From Chloroherpetonaceae bacterium (GTDB taxonomy: Bacteria; Bacteroidota; Chlorobiia; Chlorobiales; Thermochlorobacteraceae), in contig JANRJQ010000010.1 in NCBI GenBank assembly GCA_033763895.1, positions 376,146 through 440,145 of the forward strand: DNA of 64,000 nucleotides. Direction: 5' to 3'. Position 1 is the stretch's first letter, and every line of letters starts with the position of its first letter. The translations under genes and the position numbers were made by a program. Under the pieces are notes generated by a model. That model worked only from the letters and a program-made list of their open reading frames with translations, did not search any database and was not told the origin of the DNA. Positions 13,878-62,568 of this stretch are shown one piece after another.

Positions 13878-15113
13878 ATGAAAATTGTTCTCTTCGAAGA
13901 CGATGCTGTATTGAATTTTTTTCCTTTAGCCGTCTTAAAACCGATTACCGAATTGGTGCTTGGGATTTCCACTTTAAGAGAAAAAGCCGAAAAGCATTTT
14001 GCTTCTCCTGCGCTTCTTATCCGTAAACAGTTGCGGCCGTATTGGAGGGAAGTTCTTGGAGATCGAATATTAACCTCACCTCTTGATACAGACGAATTAA
14101 TATTTGTGAATGCGCGTTGCATTGTCGATCATAAATTTGCGTTTGGTCTTTTCGCTTTATTTGATTCTGGTGAAATGGCAATGAATACAGCCCTTTTCAA
14201 TGGAGCGCAGCCTGTATGTTTTCGTGTCAATCCTAAAACTTTTTTTGGAAATGAGTTCCCCGACACAGTTTCGGCTTCCTCTCTCTCATTTGGGATGAAG
14301 ATTCGGCAAACCGATGCGCAATTAATCTCATTCCCTTGGGAATTGATCCGATTGCATCCACAAACTTTTATTCGTGAAGCTGCGATTTATCCTGCAATGG
14401 GAAATGTATTGGGAAGAGTTCATCCAAGTGCGGTGCTTGTCAATCCTTCATGCATTTTTATTGGTGAGGGTGCTGACATTAAAGCTGGAGTGGTGCTAGA
14501 TGCCGAAGATGGATTTATCATTGTGGAAAAGGATGCCGTGGTAATGCCAAATTCGGTTTTGATGAATAATGTATTTATCGGAAAGAAATCTACCGTAAAA
14601 ATAGCTGCAAAAATTTATGATCATGTTTATATCGGAGAGCGATGCAAAGCGGGCGGGGAGATTGAGGACAGCATTATGGAATCTTACTCCAATAAACAGC
14701 ATGAAGGATTTTTGGGACATTCTTATATCTCCCATTGGTGCAATTTAGGAGCAGACACTAATACCTCAGATCTAAAGAACAACTACAGCACGGTTCGGAT
14801 GACATTCGGGAAAAAAGAAATTGATACCAAAATGCAATTTTTAGGACTCTTAATGGGCGAGCATTCAAAATCGTCGATTAACACAATGTTCAACACCGGA
14901 ACTATCGTTGGAATTTCATCAAACATTTTTGGAAATGGATTTCCACCAAAAAAAGTAGGCTCTTTTCAATGGGGCGGGGCAGAAGGATTTACATTATACC
15001 AAATTGAAAAAGCCCTCGAAACTGCACGCGCCGTGATGAAACGAAGAGGAATTGAAATGACTGAATCTTACGAAAAATTAATCCGAGTTACTTACGCCAC
15101 ATTAAGTGAATAG
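13878..15113 (+). CDS. GlmU-like protein (left-handed beta-helix, putative sugar nucleotidyltransferase)
   Basis: 411 residues. The N-terminal half resembles the nucleotidyltransferase-like region of the Bacteroidota GlmU-family (FEDDAVLNFFPLAVLKPITEL) but has no visible GxGTR-type nucleotide-binding loop. From about residue 165 a hexapeptide-repeat left-handed beta-helix follows (AVLVNPSCIFIGEGADIKAG and later turns), with a histidine/asparagine-rich section (HSYISHWCNLGADTNTSDLKN) like the acetyl-CoA site region of GlmU. A role in UDP-sugar or cell-wall precursor synthesis is likely, but substrate and even activity are unproven. Converges on tsaB with an 18 bp gap. Confidence 0.75.
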   Translation: MKIVLFEDDAVLNFFPLAVLKPITELVLGISTLREKAEKHFASPALLIRKQLRPYWREVLGDRILTSPLDTDELIFVNARCIVDHKFAFGLFALFDSGEMAMNTALFNGAQPVCFRVNPKTFFGNEFPDTVSASSLSFGMKIRQTDAQLISFPWELIRLHPQTFIREAAIYPAMGNVLGRVHPSAVLVNPSCIFIGEGADIKAGVVLDAEDGFIIVEKDAVVMPNSVLMNNVFIGKKSTVKIAAKIYDHVYIGERCKAGGEIEDSIMESYSNKQHEGFLGHSYISHWCNLGADTNTSDLKNNYSTVRMTFGKKEIDTKMQFLGLLMGEHSKSSINTMFNTGTIVGISSNIFGNGFPPKKVGSFQWGGAEGFTLYQIEKALETARAVMKRRGIEMTESYEKLIRVTYATLSE

Positions 15114-15131: not shown

Positions 15132-15872
15132 TTACATCTTTTTTGAAAAGACAGATTTATTACTTTTTCGAGCTTCGAATTCTTTGATGTAAAGAGGGAT
15201 GAGCGTTTCTGTATCAGCAAATTCTTTAGCCAAATATTTCTCACTTGCCCATTCGAGCATCGACTCCGCCGTAAGCCCTGTGAGAAGAAGAGGATCTAAA
15301 TCTGAAAAAAAACGCTGAGCTAAATTAGATTCTTTAACTACTAAATCGCATTTGGTTTGCTTTTCATTTTGTACTGCTTTTACGAGAGCAATAATTTCTG
15401 AAGCAGTTGCATATCCGGTATCAATCGCATCTTTGAACGCCCCTTCTTGAAATAAAGCATAGTAGAATTCCTCTGATTTTAAATGTTGAATAGCAAGTCT
15501 GTAGGCGATTGTTTTTTCTTGAAGTGGGCTTAAACTTAAACTATACCGATAGAACAGAGTTAAAGTAGGTAAAGCGATAATAGGCACTTCAAGGGCAAGC
15601 GAAAGCCCTTTTGCAACCGACATTCCAACACGTAGCGAAGTAAACGACCCCGGCCCTTGTGAAATCGCGATGGCATGTAAGTCTTTAGGCTCAAGGAGCG
15701 CTTCTTGCAATACCTCTGAAATCATTGGCACAATTACTTCAGAACTTCGAGTTGTTTCATTTGAGCTTTTCAAAAAAAACTGTTGCGGTTGTGTGGAATC
15801 GGATTTTAACACTGCAATAGAAAGTGGGCTTCCAGAAGATTCTATGGCAAGAATATTGAGGCGATGACTCAT
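15132..15872 (-). CDS. tsaB: tRNA threonylcarbamoyladenosine biosynthesis protein TsaB
   Basis: A 246-residue member of the ASKHA fold, partner of TsaD/TsaE/TsaC in making t6A37 of tRNAs that read ANN codons. Family marks are ILAIESSGSPLSIAVL at the N terminus and IAISQGPGSFTSLRVG near residue 70. TsaB itself is a pseudo-enzyme scaffold for TsaD. Its start codon overlaps the stop of the GNAT gene by one base (TAATG). None of the other t6A genes is in the window. Confidence 0.93.
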   Translation of the reverse strand: MSHRLNILAIESSGSPLSIAVLKSDSTQPQQFFLKSSNETTRSSEVIVPMISEVLQEALLEPKDLHAIAISQGPGSFTSLRVGMSVAKGLSLALEVPIIALPTLTLFYRYSLSLSPLQEKTIAYRLAIQHLKSEEFYYALFQEGAFKDAIDTGYATASEIIALVKAVQNEKQTKCDLVVKESNLAQRFFSDLDPLLLTGLTAESMLEWASEKYLAKEFADTETLIPLYIKEFEARKSNKSVFSKKM

Positions 15873-16375
15873 TATAAAATCGATTTCAATTCTTTCTCTA
15901 AGCGTATCAAATCATTCTCTTCGAGCCGATAAGAATACCATTCTTTCATTCTTTTGGCTCCAAGCTTTTCGTAAAAATCTATAGCAATTTGATTCCAATC
16001 TAAAACCTGCCACTCAATTCTTCCGCATCCTCTTCTTTCTGCTTCTTTGACTAAAAACTGAAATGCAGTAAGACCCAACTTCAATTTTCGATATTCCGGC
16101 AGTACAAATAAATCCTCTAAATAAAGCGTCGGTTTCGCTAAAAAACTGGAATAGGTTTCAAAATAAATGATGTAACCCGAAGGCTTTTGTTCAAAAAGTA
16201 TAAGAGAAGAAAAGTATCGGGGGCTTTCAGAAAAGGCATCAGCTTTTAATCTTTTTTTTGCTGAATCATCAGGAGGCGTGAGCTTTTCATAATTTGCTAA
16301 TGAAACAATGAGCGAAAAAAAAACTTCGAAGTTTGAAGGTGTAACAGGAGCAATGTCTATGTGTTTAGTCGTCAT
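15872..16375 (-). CDS. GNAT-family N-acetyltransferase
   Basis: 167 residues with the GNAT fold. The beta-4 strand YLEDLFVLPEYRKLKLG leads into the acetyl-CoA pyrophosphate loop, then RIEWQVLDWNQIAIDFYEKLGA and the C-terminal W-YRL strand. This combination resembles spermidine/diamine acetyltransferases (SSAT-like) more than RimI, but the substrate cannot be read from sequence. The gene overlaps its upstream neighbour by four bases (ATGA) and tsaB by one base, so the three genes form a translationally coupled string. Confidence 0.83.
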   Translation of the reverse strand: MTTKHIDIAPVTPSNFEVFFSLIVSLANYEKLTPPDDSAKKRLKADAFSESPRYFSSLILFEQKPSGYIIYFETYSSFLAKPTLYLEDLFVLPEYRKLKLGLTAFQFLVKEAERRGCGRIEWQVLDWNQIAIDFYEKLGAKRMKEWYSYRLEENDLIRLEKELKSIL

Positions 16376-18408
16376 TCATTTAAGAGAATTGATTTAAATA
16401 GAATTTCAAGGTCAAGAAACCGAGTGGAATTTTTGGCATAATACACATCGGTGTTCTCTGCTTGATCACCGGTTTTACCGCTCAACTTTGAAAGTGTCCA
16501 TACGCCTTCTTTTCCTACATATAATCCATTTTTGGAACTCATTTGAACAGAGTGACTTGCGCCAACAAAAGTCATCCTTCCCGTAAAAACAAACCAAAGT
16601 TTAATAAATATATCTTTCCTACCTCGAAGCCAAATGAGTGGTGAAAGAATCAAAACGAGAGGAAAAATCATTAAATCAAATAACCGTTTTGTAAAACGAG
16701 ATTCAGGGCGAAGTAAATTATACTCTATCGATTGCATCCCGATTTCTTGACCTAAACTTGATAAAGGTTCAGGGCTTAAAGGATCAATACTTCCTTTACT
16801 GATAATGACATCCAAATCTTCAGAAACGAACCTGAAATCAAGGGAGGAATCTTTTAATTGTGAGATTAAAGTTAATATTTCTGTATTACTTACGCTTGAG
16901 GGTGTAATCAATATTTCTGAAATCTTATTGACTCTAACCACTTCCTTAAGTTGATTTTTTGAGCCAAGAAGTGGGGGTGCTTCTTTTCCTAACCGCTGAA
17001 TTTTAGTTTCAAAATCAGCCAATGCATCAAATGAGATTAAAGGTTCACTGGAAATAAAACCAACCACTCGGGAGCGAGGGGTTGGAAGTTGGTTCATTCT
17101 ATCAAAAAGAGTTAATGCCTTTTCAGAAGTGCCAAATATTGCGGCTCTTTTTAATAAACCCCCTGAACCGCTTTTCTGAGCAGAGCCAAGTTTGGCGATT
17201 AGTCTCCAAGATGAGAGAAAGAATAGCGCAAGGATAAAACTGGTTGCGAGACCAATTCGAGAGAAAGCAAACTGATTGAAGAAAAATGTTATTGAAGAAG
17301 AAAGTATAAACCCTGCAAAAAGTGCTAACCAAAGTGTTTTAAGTGCCCATATCTTTGAGGCTCGGTAAACACCAAAACTTAAAAAACACATCATCCACAC
17401 AGCCAAATATGATGGAAGTACGATTAACAAAAATTCTTCCGGATAGCCACTATGCTTTAAAACATAAAACTTAATGAAAAAACCTATGACGATTGAAAGC
17501 GTAAGGAAAAACGCATCAAGGATAGGGAAAAAGAGCGAATCCAAAATTCTCTTGACAACAGATAAAGATGCTCTCAAATAAATTCCAAGCGTGAGAATGA
17601 AAACAAACCAACTCGAGGAATTGTAATATTTTTTCACAAAAATGAGCATCGCCTCATAAAACTGAAGAACATAGTTGAAGCTTTGCTTTTTTGTACTCTC
17701 CCCTTTATAGTGGATAATTTGAGTTTCGTGGAAATAAACAATCTTCCATCCACCTTTTTTTATTCGGTAACACCAATCAAGGTCTTCTCCGTACATAAAA
17801 AAAGTTTCATCGAAAAGCCCCACAGTCTCTAAAACTTCTCGTCTTAAAAACATAAAAGCGCCCATTAAGGCGTCAATTTCGTATGTCTCATTTTCAGAAA
17901 GAAAGGTAAGATTGTACTGCGCGAAGCGAGGACTTTTAGGAAAAAGAGAGGATAGTCCAAGAAGTTTGTAAAGTGAAACCTCAGGGCTTGGAAATGACCT
18001 TCGGCACGAAAGTTGAAAAGTACCATCGGCATTGAGCAATTTGCATCCCGAAGCGCCAATCTGTTTTGACTCAGGTTTCTCCATAAATTCAATCATCTTA
18101 CGGAGCGTATCCTCAGAAAGCAATGTATCAGGATTTAATACCAAAATGTATCTTCCTTTACATCTTTTAAGAGCCTGATTATTGGCACGAGCAAAGCCTA
18201 AATTTTCTTGATTCAGTATTAGGTGGATATCGATTTCCGGGTGGGAAGAGAATTTGGTTCGTAACATAGGAATCGTACCATCCGCAGAATTATTATCGAC
18301 AACAAATATCTCTGCCTTAATTCCGAGAGATGACTTAATAACGCTCTTCAAGCATTGTTCTAAAAAATCTCGAACATTGTAACTTACGATGACGATAGAA
18401 AGCGTCAT
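16372..18408 (-). CDS. Fusion: family 2 glycosyltransferase + membrane helices + Rossmann region + shortened phosphoglycosyl transferase domain
   Basis: 678 residues. Residues 1-260 are a GT2 glycosyltransferase of the rhamnosyl/WbbL type: VDNNSADGT, NPD at 92-94 in place of a DxD, and MYGEDLDWCYRI. About five membrane helices follow (265-400), then a Rossmann-like region (about 410-555: RAAIFGTSEKAL, VVGFISSE) as in WbaP/WcaJ-type polyprenyl-phosphate glycosylphosphotransferases. The last part (about 563-678) aligns with their catalytic domain at both ends (TKRLFD, MTFVGASH, GVWTLSKLSG). The core with the FRSM segment, catalytic acidic pair and DE-PQ motif is missing, so it is probably inactive. 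Likely a bifunctional-looking inner-membrane glycan assembly protein. Confidence 0.83.
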   Translation of the reverse strand: MTLSIVIVSYNVRDFLEQCLKSVIKSSLGIKAEIFVVDNNSADGTIPMLRTKFSSHPEIDIHLILNQENLGFARANNQALKRCKGRYILVLNPDTLLSEDTLRKMIEFMEKPESKQIGASGCKLLNADGTFQLSCRRSFPSPEVSLYKLLGLSSLFPKSPRFAQYNLTFLSENETYEIDALMGAFMFLRREVLETVGLFDETFFMYGEDLDWCYRIKKGGWKIVYFHETQIIHYKGESTKKQSFNYVLQFYEAMLIFVKKYYNSSSWFVFILTLGIYLRASLSVVKRILDSLFFPILDAFFLTLSIVIGFFIKFYVLKHSGYPEEFLLIVLPSYLAVWMMCFLSFGVYRASKIWALKTLWLALFAGFILSSSITFFFNQFAFSRIGLATSFILALFFLSSWRLIAKLGSAQKSGSGGLLKRAAIFGTSEKALTLFDRMNQLPTPRSRVVGFISSEPLISFDALADFETKIQRLGKEAPPLLGSKNQLKEVVRVNKISEILITPSSVSNTEILTLISQLKDSSLDFRFVSEDLDVIISKGSIDPLSPEPLSSLGQEIGMQSIEYNLLRPESRFTKRLFDLMIFPLVLILSPLIWLRGRKDIFIKLWFVFTGRMTFVGASHSVQMSSKNGLYVGKEGVWTLSKLSGKTGDQAENTDVYYAKNSTRFLDLEILFKSILLNE

Positions 18409-18436: not shown

Positions 18437-19240
18437 TCACAGCCTTCCTAAGAGTTGCTTAAATTTTAATGCCCAAACCATCCACATCGCTTCAAGAATT
18501 ATCTTTCGAGACATTTTTGATTTGCCAACCGTCCGATCAAAAAAAACAATAGGGATTTCGCGAACCTGAAAACCCTTTGACCAAGTCTTGAAGTTCATTT
18601 CAATTTGAAACGAATAACCGCCGGAGCGAACTTCATCTAAGTTTATTGATTCCAACACTTTACGGCGAAAACATTTGAATCCTCCGGTCGGATCTTGAAT
18701 CGGCATGCCAGTTATCATTCTCGTATAAAGGCTAGCACCCTTTGATAGAATGAGCCGCGAGATCGGCCAATTCACGACATTTGCAACCCGATCTAAATAG
18801 CGAGAGCCAATAACAAGGTCTGCTTCTTTTATCGCTGATAAGAAATTAGGAATCATCTTAGGGTCATGTGAAAGATCGGCATCCATCTCCATAACATAAT
18901 CATACTCATGCTGAATGGCATATCGAAAGCCGGCCACGTAAGCCGTTCCTAAGCCCATTTTTCCCGGCCTGCGCAAAAGAAAAAGATGCTTATTCTTTTT
19001 CATCATTTCTTCGACAATTGATCCTGTACCGTCTGGAGAGTTATCATCGATGATTAGGATATCAAGCCCGGGAATTTCAAGGCTCATGACTAACCCAACA
19101 ACCATTGGAATATTCTCAGCCTCGTTGTAAGTCGGTATAATAATAAGGGTTTTTCCAATCGCTATATCCACACTAGGAGGGAAAGATGTAGGTAACTCAA
19201 AATTTTCAACGGGTTTATCCATTCTGAATCTCAATGCCAT
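18437..19240 (-). CDS. Polyprenol monophosphomannose synthase type GT2 glycosyltransferase
   Basis: 267 residues of the dolichyl-phosphate mannosyltransferase (DPM1-like) family. Motifs are IIIPTYNEAENI, IIDDNSPDGT, the DxD in MEMDADLSHDP that binds the nucleotide-sugar and metal, VIGSRYL, and QIEMNFKTWSKGF towards the C terminus. It lacks the C-terminal membrane helices of some homologues. Expected reaction: transfer of a sugar from GDP-mannose or UDP-sugar to a polyprenyl phosphate on the cytoplasmic face. It lies 28 bp upstream of the GT2 fusion gene, so the two probably act in one envelope glycan pathway. Confidence 0.88.
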   Translation of the reverse strand: MALRFRMDKPVENFELPTSFPPSVDIAIGKTLIIIPTYNEAENIPMVVGLVMSLEIPGLDILIIDDNSPDGTGSIVEEMMKKNKHLFLLRRPGKMGLGTAYVAGFRYAIQHEYDYVMEMDADLSHDPKMIPNFLSAIKEADLVIGSRYLDRVANVVNWPISRLILSKGASLYTRMITGMPIQDPTGGFKCFRRKVLESINLDEVRSGGYSFQIEMNFKTWSKGFQVREIPIVFFDRTVGKSKMSRKIILEAMWMVWALKFKQLLGRL

Positions 19241-57586: not shown

Positions 57587-59011
57587 ATGTCGTCTTTGAG
57601 AGTACCGTTACACAAAATCATTTTGGCAATTGGGGACTACAGTGTTATTCTACTTTCTATTTGGATAGCAATACAACTTAGGTTGCCCGAAAGAAATCTT
57701 TCCCCTGAAAGCATTAATTTTTTTGCCCTTCAATCGATTCTTTTGATATGCCTCTCATTTTCTTGGATTATCATCTTTCAATCTCAAAATCTTTATAAAA
57801 TCAACTGGTTCCTTTCCACAGCTCAACAGTTTGTGGCAATCTTTAAGAGTGTAGGTTATGGGATTTTAGGAATTGTGATGCTTTCCTTTATTGTGAAGGG
57901 AAACTATGTTTTGGATAGTCGTTTAATAACGGCGTATCTCGCATTAGTTTTATTTGTATTGCTCGTTGTTTGGAGGATATTTGTTTTCAGATCACTTTAC
58001 ATTTATCTCTCAAGGCATTCTATTGGAGGCAGAAATATCTTAATTGTAGGCGCGGGGAGAAGAGGTACAAAACTGGCTCGTGAGATTATCTCTTTAAACC
58101 GATACGGATTAAATGTGGTTGGCTTTTTGGATGATAAAATTCCAACAGATAAAATTATTCTCGACAACAGAAAAGTTCTTGGCAGCATTAAGGATTTGAG
58201 AAAAGTGATTGAAGAAATCAAGATTGACGAGATTATCATTGCAATGAGCAATGTAACTCACTCAAGATTACATGACATAATGGATTTTTGTAAATCAACA
58301 GGAATAGCAACTAAACTTTCTTCTGCACTTTACGAAATCGTTCCAACGAAAGTGGATGTTGAGTTTTATGGCAATAATGTTGTAATTGACCTCTCATCAG
58401 GATTTGACCGAGTTCAAGGGTTTTATAAACGATCTGTGGATATTTTTCTCTCGTTGATTTCAATTCTAATCATAACCCCATTTCTGATTATTATTTCAAT
58501 TGCTATAAAACTTGACTCAAGAGGTCCGATTTTTTATCGTCAAAAAAGAGTTGGTAAAGACGGTAAACTCTTTTGGTGTTACAAGTTTAGATCGATGCAT
58601 ATTGACGCTGATGAAAGAAAAAAAGAGTTAGAAGCATTTAATGAGGTATCCGGGCCAATTTTTAAGATGAAAAATGATCCAAGAGTAACGAGAGTTGGCA
58701 AATTTATTCGAAGGCTTTCTGTAGATGAAGTCCCTCAAATTTTGAATGTTCTAATGGGAGATATGTCATTTGTTGGACCTCGGCCCTGTACGCCCGATGA
58801 ATTGCAAAAGTATGAAGACTGGCATAAACGAAGACTTTCCGTGCCGCAAGGAATTACAGGTTTATGGCAAGTCAGTGGAAGGAGTAATTTAAGTTTTGTC
58901 GATATGGTGATTTTAGACCTCTACTATGTTGAGAATGCTTCCGTAATAATGGATTTCAACATCATTTTGAGAACTCTCCCAGCAGTAATTTTTGGTAAAG
59001 GTGCATACTGA
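57587..59011 (+). CDS. Polyprenyl-phosphate glycosylphosphotransferase (WcaJ/WbaP family)
   Basis: 474 residues, first step of an exopolysaccharide or capsule pathway: transfer of a sugar-1-phosphate from a nucleotide sugar to undecaprenyl phosphate. Five membrane helices (about 10-30, 45-65, 80-105, 110-130 and 280-305), a Rossmann-like region (about 150-250: NILIVGAGRRGTKLAREI), and a complete catalytic domain with YKFRSM, DADERKKE, SVDEVPQ, MSFVGPRP and GLWQVSGRS. It starts a three-gene run with the WecG-like transferase and an amylase. Confidence 0.93.
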   Translation: MSSLRVPLHKIILAIGDYSVILLSIWIAIQLRLPERNLSPESINFFALQSILLICLSFSWIIIFQSQNLYKINWFLSTAQQFVAIFKSVGYGILGIVMLSFIVKGNYVLDSRLITAYLALVLFVLLVVWRIFVFRSLYIYLSRHSIGGRNILIVGAGRRGTKLAREIISLNRYGLNVVGFLDDKIPTDKIILDNRKVLGSIKDLRKVIEEIKIDEIIIAMSNVTHSRLHDIMDFCKSTGIATKLSSALYEIVPTKVDVEFYGNNVVIDLSSGFDRVQGFYKRSVDIFLSLISILIITPFLIIISIAIKLDSRGPIFYRQKRVGKDGKLFWCYKFRSMHIDADERKKELEAFNEVSGPIFKMKNDPRVTRVGKFIRRLSVDEVPQILNVLMGDMSFVGPRPCTPDELQKYEDWHKRRLSVPQGITGLWQVSGRSNLSFVDMVILDLYYVENASVIMDFNIILRTLPAVIFGKGAY

Positions 59012-59014
59012 GTG

Positions 59015-59842
59015 ATGGAGAATCAAATTAAAACTGTTGAAAAAGCACCCCTCACATCCTCTCCAACCGATAAGTTTTCCCTCTTAAAAGAGAAAAGAAC
59101 TTATGCGATGTCAACCCCGATGGATAATCTCACGATGAGCGAAACAATTGAATTAATTGATGAAGCCATCAAGATCAACAAATCAATTCAGCATGTTGTT
59201 GTGAATGCAGCCAAGGTCGTTGAAATCAATAAGAACCCCTCTTTGAAGAAGATCGTTGATGAGTGTGATATTGTTAATATCGATGGTCAAGCGGTCGTAT
59301 GGGCATCTCGTTTTTTAGGATTTCCAGTGAAGGAAAGAGTTGCGGGGATTGATTTAATGGAAAAACTGATTGAAATGGCCTCTGAAAAAAATTATGGGGT
59401 TTATTTTTTAGGTGCAAAGCAAGAAATTCTGGAAAAAGTAGTCGATGTCTATAAAGCAAAATACAAAAATATTAAGATTTCTGGGTTGAGAAATGGTTAT
59501 TTCAAAGAAGATGAGGAGTTAGATATTGCAAAAGAAATTGCAAAATCCCAAACAAAAATCTTACTTGTTGCAATTAGTTCTCCTAAAAAGGAATTTTTTC
59601 TTAATAAGTATAAGTCTGTAATGGGTGTTCCGTTTGTAATGGGTGTTGGAGGCAGTTTTGATGTGGTAGCTGGGTACGTTAAAAGAGCTCCCCTTTGGAT
59701 GCAAAATTTCGGTTTAGAATGGCTATTTCGCTTTTTGCAAGAGCCAAAAAGAATGTGGAAGAGATATATTATAGGTAACTCTGAATTTATTTGGATTGTA
59801 ATTAAGGAGAAAGTATTTCAAAAAATATTAAGAAAGAAATAA
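59015..59842 (+). CDS. WecG/TagA/CpsF-family glycosyltransferase
   Basis: 275 residues from the ATG at 59015 (a GTG lies just before it). Family motifs: VVNAAKVVEIN, VNIDGQAVVWASRFLG, RVAGIDLME, VAISSPKKEFF and GVGGSFDVVAGYVKRAP, then EWLFRFLQEPKRMWKRY. It adds ManNAc-like or other sugars to a lipid-linked intermediate. The start is 3 bp beyond the phosphotransferase stop, so the two act in the same pathway. Confidence 0.92.
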   Translation: MENQIKTVEKAPLTSSPTDKFSLLKEKRTYAMSTPMDNLTMSETIELIDEAIKINKSIQHVVVNAAKVVEINKNPSLKKIVDECDIVNIDGQAVVWASRFLGFPVKERVAGIDLMEKLIEMASEKNYGVYFLGAKQEILEKVVDVYKAKYKNIKISGLRNGYFKEDEELDIAKEIAKSQTKILLVAISSPKKEFFLNKYKSVMGVPFVMGVGGSFDVVAGYVKRAPLWMQNFGLEWLFRFLQEPKRMWKRYIIGNSEFIWIVIKEKVFQKILRKK

Positions 59843-59844
59843 CT

Positions 59845-62568
59845 ATGAAAAACTTTTTAAGAATATTTTTTCTATTTTTTCTTTTTTTCTTAAGTTCTAC
59901 TATTCAAGCCCAAAATGATTTTCGAGAAGAGACGATTTATTTTTTAATGACTTCACGATTTTATGATGGAGATACACTAAACAGCAAACCGACAGAATGG
60001 AGTTCTTTTCCAAGACCACAAATCACGAATCCAAAAGATGTTACTTGGAGAGGCGACTTTAAAGGTCTGATTCAAAAGTTAGATTATATAAAAGATTTAG
60101 GATTTACAGCGATTTGGATTACTCCGATTGTTCAAAACCGAAGCCCACTCGATTATCACGGATATCATGCTTGGGATTTCACGCGGGTTGACCCGCGATT
60201 GGAATCGCCCGGTTATACTTTCAAAACACTGATAGACTCTGCCCACTCAAAAGGTTTGAAAATTATTTTGGATGTCGTGCTCAACCACGCGGGAAGATTT
60301 GGTGTTAAGGGAAAAGCAGAAATCAAGTATAATACTGATACCACCCAAGCTTGGGGAAAGGATTCACAAGGAAAAGCCTTAAAAGATAATCCTAATTGGC
60401 AATATGACGGAGTTACTCCAAACCCGGATGACGGAAAAATTTGGTCAAGAGCAAATGTGGCCAAAATGCCTCCGCCCTTTAATCAAAACTTGTCTTTATA
60501 TAATTGGCCATCAAAAGAAAGCTACATTGATACCTCTGACCCTGATTGGTATCATCACTCTGGAAATGGTTTTGCACAAGGTTATGATGATACCACAAAT
60601 CTTTATCAACGTGCTTTAGCAGGCGATACTCCCGATTTTCACACGAGAAGCGATTCCGTAAGGAAGTATTTGGTTGAAGCATACAAACAATACATTGAGA
60701 TGGGAATTGATGGGATGCGATTAGATGCCATTAAACACATCAACATTCATGATTTATTATATTTTGTAGATGCATTCAGAGCGATTAACCCACAGCTTTT
60801 TTTTGTTGGCGAGGTCGCACAAAAGCGTCATGAATTGCATCAGGTGGAGCAAATTAATCCACATTGGTACACTTGGAGAAATGGGGTGGGTTCAGAACCC
60901 TCAGGAATTTCGGTTTTCGATTTCTATGCTATGGCAACTTTTCACCTTTTTGAAAAAGGGGAATCATTCTCTGGTGTTACTTCAGCATCTCGCTATGACC
61001 ACCTTTATGCAGATCCATCGAGTTTAGTGACCTTTCTAGATAATCATGATTTTGGTCCTAATAATGATTGGAACAGACGTTTTGGAAATACCGCACAAAA
61101 TTTAGCGGCTTGCTTAAACTTTATGTTTACTTGGCGAGGAATCCCATCAGTTTACTATGGTACTGAAATGCAATTCAAGCAAGGAGCATATACTGATATA
61201 AAAGATGCCAGTGATATCGAAAGATCGATTGATTTAACAGGAAGAGCCTATTATGGCGATGTTTTGAATCAAGCGCCAAACCATCCCATATACAAACACA
61301 TCAAAAAGTTGAATGCCATTCGTAAGGCACTGCCTGCGTTACAAAAGGGAACTTGGCAATGGGCCGGCGGCGGTGGTGGAAATGGGGTTGGATACATCCG
61401 TAAATTTGGATCGAATGAAGTTGTTGTAGGTTTGGCAAAAGATGGTGCAGTTACCTTCAACTTTATTGGTCTCACCAATGGCATTTATCGTGATGCAGTG
61501 ACTGGAAATGAAATTAATGTGTCTAATGGTAATCTTTCATTCACAGTTCAACCTAGCTCCGCGGGAATATATGTGCTTAATGGCCCCGGCCTAATCGGTG
61601 AACTTGGATCTGGTTATTTTCAATCTTCCTCTTCTGGAGCAGGTTCGGGAGGTGGAAACTCAAGACCAACTGTAGTCTCATTTAACCCAACTTCACCCAC
61701 TCCCGGGTCAAACCTAACTGTGCGATATGTTGGCCAATTAAGTACTGCTTCACAAGTTAATTTGTATTGGGGAATCGATGCTTGGCAGTCTATAACGACT
61801 ACACAAATGCAAAAACAAAATGATTCCACTTGGCAAACAACGGTAACTATTCCTCAAAACGCAACTCAGCGATTTGTCTGTGCATTTAATAATGGTTCAG
61901 GTACTTGGGATAATAATAACGGCGCTGATTTTCAAGTTTCATTATTGGGTTCAGGAGGCGGCGGTAATGGAAATGGGATTACTATTTACTTTCGTCCGCC
62001 ACAAAATTGGAATGCCCAGAGAATTTATTTCTATGAAGCATCTCCTTCAGTGACAACTCCAAGTTGGGATGGATCACCTTCAATGTCTTCAATGGGCAAT
62101 GGGTGGTTTTCTTACACAATTCCTTCTGTTACGAGTATTAGAGTAATTTTTCGGGATAATGCAAATAATCAGATTCCTGCATCTCTTCAACCCGGTTTTA
62201 TAAGAACTGCTTCCGGATGGTACGATGGGACAACAAATTCTTGGACTGACTCGAGCCCACTTAGCACACCAAGACAAAGAGAAATCGAAATGAAAGTTGA
62301 GTTGCTTCAGAATTATCCTAATCCTTTTAATCCATCCACATTTATCACTTACCAACTTACAGAACCTTCAGTTGTAAATTTGGAGATATTCGACGTTTTT
62401 GGTAGAAAAGTTGTAACATTAGTTAACCGTCTTCAAGGTTTAGGAAGATACAGCGTAAGATTTGATGCGTCGGAGCAAAAACTAAGTAGCGGGACATATT
62501 TTTATCGGATAAATACAAAAGGAACCAAGTCATTTTCAAAAACGCTTAAAATGACTTTGGTGAAATAA
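59845..62568 (+). CDS. T9SS-exported alpha-amylase-family enzyme with starch-binding modules
   Basis: 907 residues. Signal peptide (1-22, IQAQ). GH13 barrel (about 25-440): DVVLNHAG, GIDGMRLDAIKHIN with the nucleophile Asp, FVGEVAQ with the acid/base Glu, and LDNHDFG. Next are a beta-sandwich C-domain (about 490-580), two CBM25/26-type starch-binding modules (about 595-700 and 705-805) separated by Gly/Ser-rich linkers, and a C-terminal type IX secretion sorting domain (NYPNPFNPSTFITYQ to KTLKMTLVK). It is sent across the outer membrane and likely degrades starch or glycogen-type glucans. It starts 2 bp after the WecG-like gene. Confidence 0.92.
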   Translation: MKNFLRIFFLFFLFFLSSTIQAQNDFREETIYFLMTSRFYDGDTLNSKPTEWSSFPRPQITNPKDVTWRGDFKGLIQKLDYIKDLGFTAIWITPIVQNRSPLDYHGYHAWDFTRVDPRLESPGYTFKTLIDSAHSKGLKIILDVVLNHAGRFGVKGKAEIKYNTDTTQAWGKDSQGKALKDNPNWQYDGVTPNPDDGKIWSRANVAKMPPPFNQNLSLYNWPSKESYIDTSDPDWYHHSGNGFAQGYDDTTNLYQRALAGDTPDFHTRSDSVRKYLVEAYKQYIEMGIDGMRLDAIKHINIHDLLYFVDAFRAINPQLFFVGEVAQKRHELHQVEQINPHWYTWRNGVGSEPSGISVFDFYAMATFHLFEKGESFSGVTSASRYDHLYADPSSLVTFLDNHDFGPNNDWNRRFGNTAQNLAACLNFMFTWRGIPSVYYGTEMQFKQGAYTDIKDASDIERSIDLTGRAYYGDVLNQAPNHPIYKHIKKLNAIRKALPALQKGTWQWAGGGGGNGVGYIRKFGSNEVVVGLAKDGAVTFNFIGLTNGIYRDAVTGNEINVSNGNLSFTVQPSSAGIYVLNGPGLIGELGSGYFQSSSSGAGSGGGNSRPTVVSFNPTSPTPGSNLTVRYVGQLSTASQVNLYWGIDAWQSITTTQMQKQNDSTWQTTVTIPQNATQRFVCAFNNGSGTWDNNNGADFQVSLLGSGGGGNGNGITIYFRPPQNWNAQRIYFYEASPSVTTPSWDGSPSMSSMGNGWFSYTIPSVTSIRVIFRDNANNQIPASLQPGFIRTASGWYDGTTNSWTDSSPLSTPRQREIEMKVELLQNYPNPFNPSTFITYQLTEPSVVNLEIFDVFGRKVVTLVNRLQGLGRYSVRFDASEQKLSSGTYFYRINTKGTKSFSKTLKMTLVK

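Follow-up and report, generated by a model that had tools for sequence, protein, structure and literature searches.

Monotopic phosphoglycosyl transferases (PGTs) are defined by a basic motif and a re-entrant membrane helix, as well as by the DE dyad and PRP motifs, and their chemistry depends on the DE dyad, which is required for the covalent intermediate (PMC10653937). Among the large monotopic PGTs, WbaP dimerizes mainly via the CoA_binding_3 domain, with a swapped hairpin, and in the Bi-PGTs, functional domains are fused to the N- or C-terminus of an active PGT core (PMC10942596). Here we analyze a 678-residue protein encoded in a 64,000-nucleotide stretch of DNA (hereinafter, the window, that is, the whole stretch analyzed) from a Chloroherpetonaceae bacterium. 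The assignment of the tail of this protein as a predicted pseudo-PGT, fused to a GT2 glycosyltransferase, is strongly supported by the comparisons described below. The protein belongs to a widespread family, the genomic context of which points to the assembly of lipid-linked glycans.

Domain organization and the missing PGT core

The coordinates of the gene, its parts and the adjacent genes are given in the table. The open reading frame starts with ATG and contains no internal stop codons, which agrees with the initial annotation of the gene as intact. The N-terminal GT2 domain, also part of that annotation, is clearly recognizable, with a GT-A fold that matches the WrtF fucosyltransferase (Foldseek E 3.5e-12); its catalytic residues D38, N92-P93-D94, E208 and D209 are intact and invariant in 137/137 aligned relatives. 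In the full-length AlphaFold model (pLDDT 87, pTM 0.81), this domain is followed by four membrane helices (266-316, which is long, 324-344, 356-376 and 384-413) rather than the roughly five originally proposed; the bundle aligns by HMM to residues 66-236 of WbaP (8t53) and contains an FSR motif (S383, R384) that is invariant in the family. The WcaJ/WbaP-like Rossmann region noted previously corresponds to the CoA_binding_3 domain (DUF), in which we include the strand pair that precedes the PGT rump; strands 524-543, in the hairpin region of this domain, are seen in the monomer model.

Table. The GT2/pseudo-PGT gene, its parts and other genes of the window
Feature	Coordinates	Strand	Details
GT2 + pseudo large monotopic PGT fusion, whole gene	16372..18408	-	678 aa
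GT2 catalytic domain, residues 1-240	17689..18408	-	PF00535 88 bits over residues 4-115 (Pfam); Foldseek WrtF 9omn
WbaP-like four-helix membrane bundle, residues 266-413	17170..17613	-	AlphaFold secondary structure, invariant columns, HMM alignment 8t53
CoA_binding_3 (DUF, Rossmann), residues ~416-548	16765..17163	-	PF13727 44 bits over residues 356-528, cut-off 25 (Pfam); model strands 420-543; Foldseek 3nkl
Predicted pseudo-PGT rump, residues 563-678	16375..16722	-	without DE dyad, without PRP
Shortened KRLFD-MTFVG stretch (deletion position)	16576..16674	-	33 residues; 107 in intact homologue
Intact WcaJ/WbaP-type PGT	57587..59011	+	474 aa; TIGR03025 409 bits, PF02397 219 bits; DE at 380-381
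DPM1-like GT2 (polyprenyl-phosphate sugar synthase type)	18437..19240	-	28 bp upstream of the fusion gene
GNAT acetyltransferase	15872..16375	-	overlaps 3' end of the fusion gene by 4 bases
tsaB	15132..15872	-	TIGR03725 117 bits; overlaps GNAT by 1 base

A PF02397 (Bac_transf) search of the source genome yielded 3 intact PGTs and a weak match in the 678-residue protein that scores 20 bits against a cut-off of 27 and covers only positions 91-174 of the 179-position profile; the TIGR03025 score, 90 bits, is likewise below the cut-off (295.6). In profile-profile comparison, the family alignment of residues 565-678 matches the intact PGTs with an hhalign probability of 99.3% (E 1.8e-20), with the two ends aligned and the middle represented by a gap, so that KRLFD (573) and MTFVG (612), noticed at the outset as the beginning and the end of a PGT domain, are indeed the PGT ends. 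When the profile of residues 290-678 was compared with solved structures, WbaP (8t53) was matched in two stretches, the bundle/DUF and the PGT core (E 7.3e-28), and PglC was matched as well (8e37, E 4e-16; 8g1n, E 1e-15). When the tail was modeled separately with AlphaFold (pLDDT 82, pTM 0.57), its best fold match in the PDB was WbaP (Foldseek E 1.2e-10); the global TM-score to WbaP is low (0.27, rmsd 14 A) because the placement of the domains differs. The structure prediction and the comparison with WcaJ/PglC that had been proposed as a check thus favor the PGT assignment, and the possibility that residues 563-678 comprise an unrelated domain is ruled out by the hhalign result, the matches of the profile to solved structures and the fold match. 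The rump retains K574-R575, D578, P590, G616, Y657 and D666.

The loss was assessed against the PGT encoded at 57587, used as the intact comparison sequence, and motifs were counted over 137 aligned relatives out of 145 full-length loci, with 54 nearby intact PGTs for comparison. The initial annotation was right that the catalytic core is absent but estimated the loss at about 85 residues; the spacing between KRLFD and MTFVG indicates that 74 residues are missing. The acidic pair, placed in the initial annotation in a DADER motif, is actually the DE of VDEVPQ in the intact homologue. Both the catalytic DE dyad and the uridine-binding PRP are present in 54/54 intact PGTs and in 0/137 relatives, and the distance from the D of KRxxD to the G of GPRP, 98-101 residues in the intact enzymes, is 20-74 residues (median 40) in the pseudo forms. 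The dyad position itself is still alignable; it reads D-I in the window protein, whereas, among the relatives, random residues are found in place of the D, and the E is replaced mostly by F. Given the loss of the dyad, the tail should be incapable of the covalent-intermediate chemistry of PGTs, and we infer from sequence that it no longer transfers sugar phosphate. It appears very improbable that the rump is still catalytic, by means of other residues or of residues supplied by the GT2 domain: D599 does occupy the first position of the dyad in the window protein, but an aspartate is found there in only 1/137 relatives, the second position is mostly F, and PRP is lost everywhere. A regular expression picked up DExPQ-like strings in two relatives (L134, L064), in both cases outside the PGT region. 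A comparison of the glycine loop of CoA_binding_3 was set aside as the pattern failed on intact PGTs as well (17/54).

Distribution, conservation and reduced forms of the family

The same fused layout, for which a search of related genomes had been suggested, was identified by a public-genome scan together with a phylum survey at the 145 full-length loci, from Bacteroidota, Ignavibacteria, Calditrichota and Marinimicrobia; in the public-genome scan, full-length relatives were found in Ignavibacteria, Calditrichota, Marinimicrobia, Chitinophagales and other Bacteroidota. The only observation in favor of an error in sequencing or assembly, or of recent pseudogenization confined to the source genome, is the in-frame shortening itself. 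Full-length versions that are 51-53% identical and show the same loss are present in 7 genomes of the source's own family, so that the likelihood of an artifact is negligible, and a loss limited to a single genome is ruled out by the 145 loci overall.

The pseudo-PGT tails form one clade apart from the intact PGTs (SH-aLRT 100). The best explanation of these observations is a single fusion, in which a large WbaP-type PGT gave rise to the C-terminal 400 residues, followed by loss of the catalytic core; an intact GT2-PGT fusion that could represent the ancestor was not seen among the collected relatives. Both parts of the protein evolve under purifying selection, with a median dN/dS of 0.078 for the GT2 domain and 0.124 for the pseudo-PGT (21 pairs). 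Within the rump, K574, D578, P590, G616, Y657 and D666 are each conserved in 90-99% of the 137 relatives, across several phyla; with K574 in 131/137, R575 in 112/137 and P590 in 123/137, the basic motif and the helix-break-helix of the re-entrant membrane helix are present. The GT2 profile detects one copy of the gene in 178 of the 296 sampled genomes of the phylum. Pfam recognizes the PGT domain in only 9/58 members and CoA_binding_3 in 16/58, and therefore most members can be expected to be annotated as plain GT2 proteins.

The proteins detected with the GT2 profile are mostly 610-750 aa long and otherwise 383-430 aa. In the short forms, part of CoA_binding_3 is kept whereas the bundle and the rump are gone: a CoA_binding_3 remnant was detected in 6 short forms (hmmsearch E 4e-7 to 3e-3; the database contained only 24 sequences, and other GT2 controls reached 1.6 at best), and the Bacteroidales short forms match this domain with an hhalign probability of 88.5% (E 2.7e-6). 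Short forms that lack the bundle and the rump occur in families f9, f12 and f21 and in Bacteroidales. Given that f9 and f21 hold both forms and that two of the short-form loci (L203, L204) keep the accA or recR neighborhood of the long form, the bundle and the rump have been lost several times, and these independent losses show that they are dispensable in some lineages. Short orthologues of 371-417 aa, which consist of GT2 and a CoA_binding_3 remnant only, are encoded at L201, L202, L203 and L204 and, in Bacteroidales, at L090, L094, L095, L102 and L113. Two loci (L100:6001-6777 and L101) carry a GT2-only orthologue of 258 aa right after recR, where a third (L068) has a 644-aa form. At L200:6111-9206, a family frame of 1031 aa has its CoA_binding_3 region interrupted by a long Gly/Ala-rich insert.

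These reduced forms bear on the possibility that the tail is an eroding relic of a bifunctional PGT-GT that now serves as a mere membrane anchor, without a specific partner or ligand. Apart from the short forms, this possibility gains from the graded motif spacing, which decreases from 98-101 in intact PGTs to 60-74, then to ~46-50 and ~37-41 in the pseudo forms, and from two proteins of 609-613 aa (L195:9436-11277, L196:8310-10139) in which the pseudo-PGT is nearly eroded and the re-entrant helix largely gone, even as their genes still belong to a PGT - DegT - DPM1-like - gene - accA cluster. The low dN/dS of the rump (0.12) and the near-universal retention of the six rump residues listed above argue against mere erosion, and we regard it as unlikely.

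Genomic context and predicted function

In the window, the tight overlaps at the 3' end of the gene, involving the GNAT and tsaB genes, suggest possible co-transcription. In two Bacteroidales loci (L095:7113-7652, L109:5442-6011), the short orthologue likewise overlaps a downstream GNAT gene by 4 bases; judging by eye, this GNAT appears to belong to a subfamily other than that in the window. Elsewhere in the window, at 13878-15113, a GlmU of the alternative bacterial type is encoded (TIGR03991, 419 bits), and positions 57587-62568 encompass, head to tail, the intact PGT, a glycosyltransferase that by eye looks like WecG/TagA (59012-59842) and, at 59845-62568, a secreted protein that resembles alpha-amylases and has a sorting-type end at its C-terminus.

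Across the family, the predominant gene order is PGT, (DegT aminotransferase), DPM1-like, family gene, accA, YbgC thioesterase, nadC and wzx flippase. The DPM1-like GT2 gene is located directly upstream in 49/145 family loci and within 7 kb in 53/77 survey loci; an intact PGT is found within 7 kb in 52/77 survey loci, from 18/30 families, against 1-2% expected by chance (a rough estimate, with ~3 PGTs per 3.5 Mb genome), and each of the 55 PGTs detected among all family loci lies on the same strand as the family gene. The neighborhood alone can reflect inherited gene order since the order of accA and nadC is conserved as well. Many relatives have no adjacent PGT, including nearly all Chitinophagales loci seen; in the window, the DPM1-like gene is adjacent but no PGT is present within 7 kb, and an intact PGT lies ~39 kb away. 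In 4 loci (L143, L144, L150, L169), a WecA-type PGT occupies the place of the PGT, and in Calditrichota, the family gene is immediately preceded by wecA; a polytopic PGT of this type is also found upstream in L036, L039, L041 and L043, a non-homologous replacement of the initiating enzyme.

Such clustering on one strand, in the majority of survey loci and families, is what would be expected if the tail worked specifically with the active large PGT encoded in the operon, forming a mixed dimer via CoA_binding_3 that couples initiation to the GT2 reaction or regulates the PGT. Several observations are at odds with this scheme: the WecA-type enzymes at the four loci and in Calditrichota have a different fold, many loci lack a nearby PGT, and the short forms have lost the membrane bundle. 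In particular, because of the WecA-type replacement and the lineages that have only a GT2 with a partial CoA_binding_3, obligate pairing with a WbaP-type partner is disfavored, and a dedicated partnership seems rather unlikely.

The function we consider probable is that the GT2 domain contributes to lipid-linked glycan assembly while the pseudo-PGT tail serves as a membrane and oligomerization scaffold. The gene is widespread and present in a single copy, and is often clustered with genes for a flippase, a PGT and a DPM1-like enzyme, which is indicative of a conserved pathway for lipid-linked glycans. Furthermore, a dead form that selection maintains across Bacteroidota and related phyla, in many cases next to an active PGT, is probably a scaffold or an anchor, and retention of the membrane-binding parts (the bundle and the re-entrant helix) and of the part that pairs WbaP subunits suggests a membrane-held, paired GT2. 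Under this scenario, the inverting GT2 would act at the cytoplasmic face of the inner membrane, building a polyprenol-linked glycan; the four-helix bundle and the re-entrant helix would hold it at the membrane; and CoA_binding_3 would pair the subunits as in the WbaP dimer. So placed, the GT2 would meet the lipid-linked product of the neighboring PGT and act after the initiating enzyme. According to the initial annotation, the tail could tether the glycosyltransferase to a genuine enzyme or to lipid-linked sugar; this suggestion is compatible, at the level of predicted operons, with the presence of an active PGT gene.

A more specific and quite tentative possibility is that the pseudo-PGT family recruits a glycosyltransferase into a membrane center of lipid-linked glycan synthesis, as a dimer with itself or with the initiating PGT, throughout Bacteroidota and sister phyla. 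Bacteroidota possess a protein O-glycan with a conserved core, the enzymes of which are not yet identified (PMC12871550). That such a center builds this core is speculation, drawn from the conservation of the gene and its DPM1-like neighbor.

Comparison with known systems

If the tail is a scaffold, the family would represent a pseudoenzyme within the PGT superfamily, for which we found no report in the literature searched; the search covered inactive or pseudo-PGTs and GT2 proteins with a pseudo-PGT tail, and a mention in a network survey (PMC7848588) is possible. The natural series of intact, shortened, nearly gone and lost tails would then be a probe of the non-catalytic parts of large PGTs.

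The closest known relatives of the tail are the large monotopic PGTs WbaP and WcaJ (TIGR03025, PF02397 + PF13727; 8t53), with which it shares the four-helix bundle, CoA_binding_3, the basic motif, the proline of the re-entrant helix and the C-terminal Y...D end; in contrast to these enzymes, it lacks the DE dyad, PRP and ~74 core residues, and has a GT2 domain fused at the N-terminus. The Bi-PGTs likewise carry a second enzyme domain on a monotopic PGT but, in the present family, the PGT part is, judging by its sequence, inactive, and both the bundle and the DUF of a large PGT are part of the fusion. The N-terminal domain shares its fold and catalytic motifs with the WrtF fucosyltransferase (9omn) and the rhamnosyltransferase-like GT2s (TIGR01556), from which the family differs in that its GT2 bears a pseudo-PGT tail.
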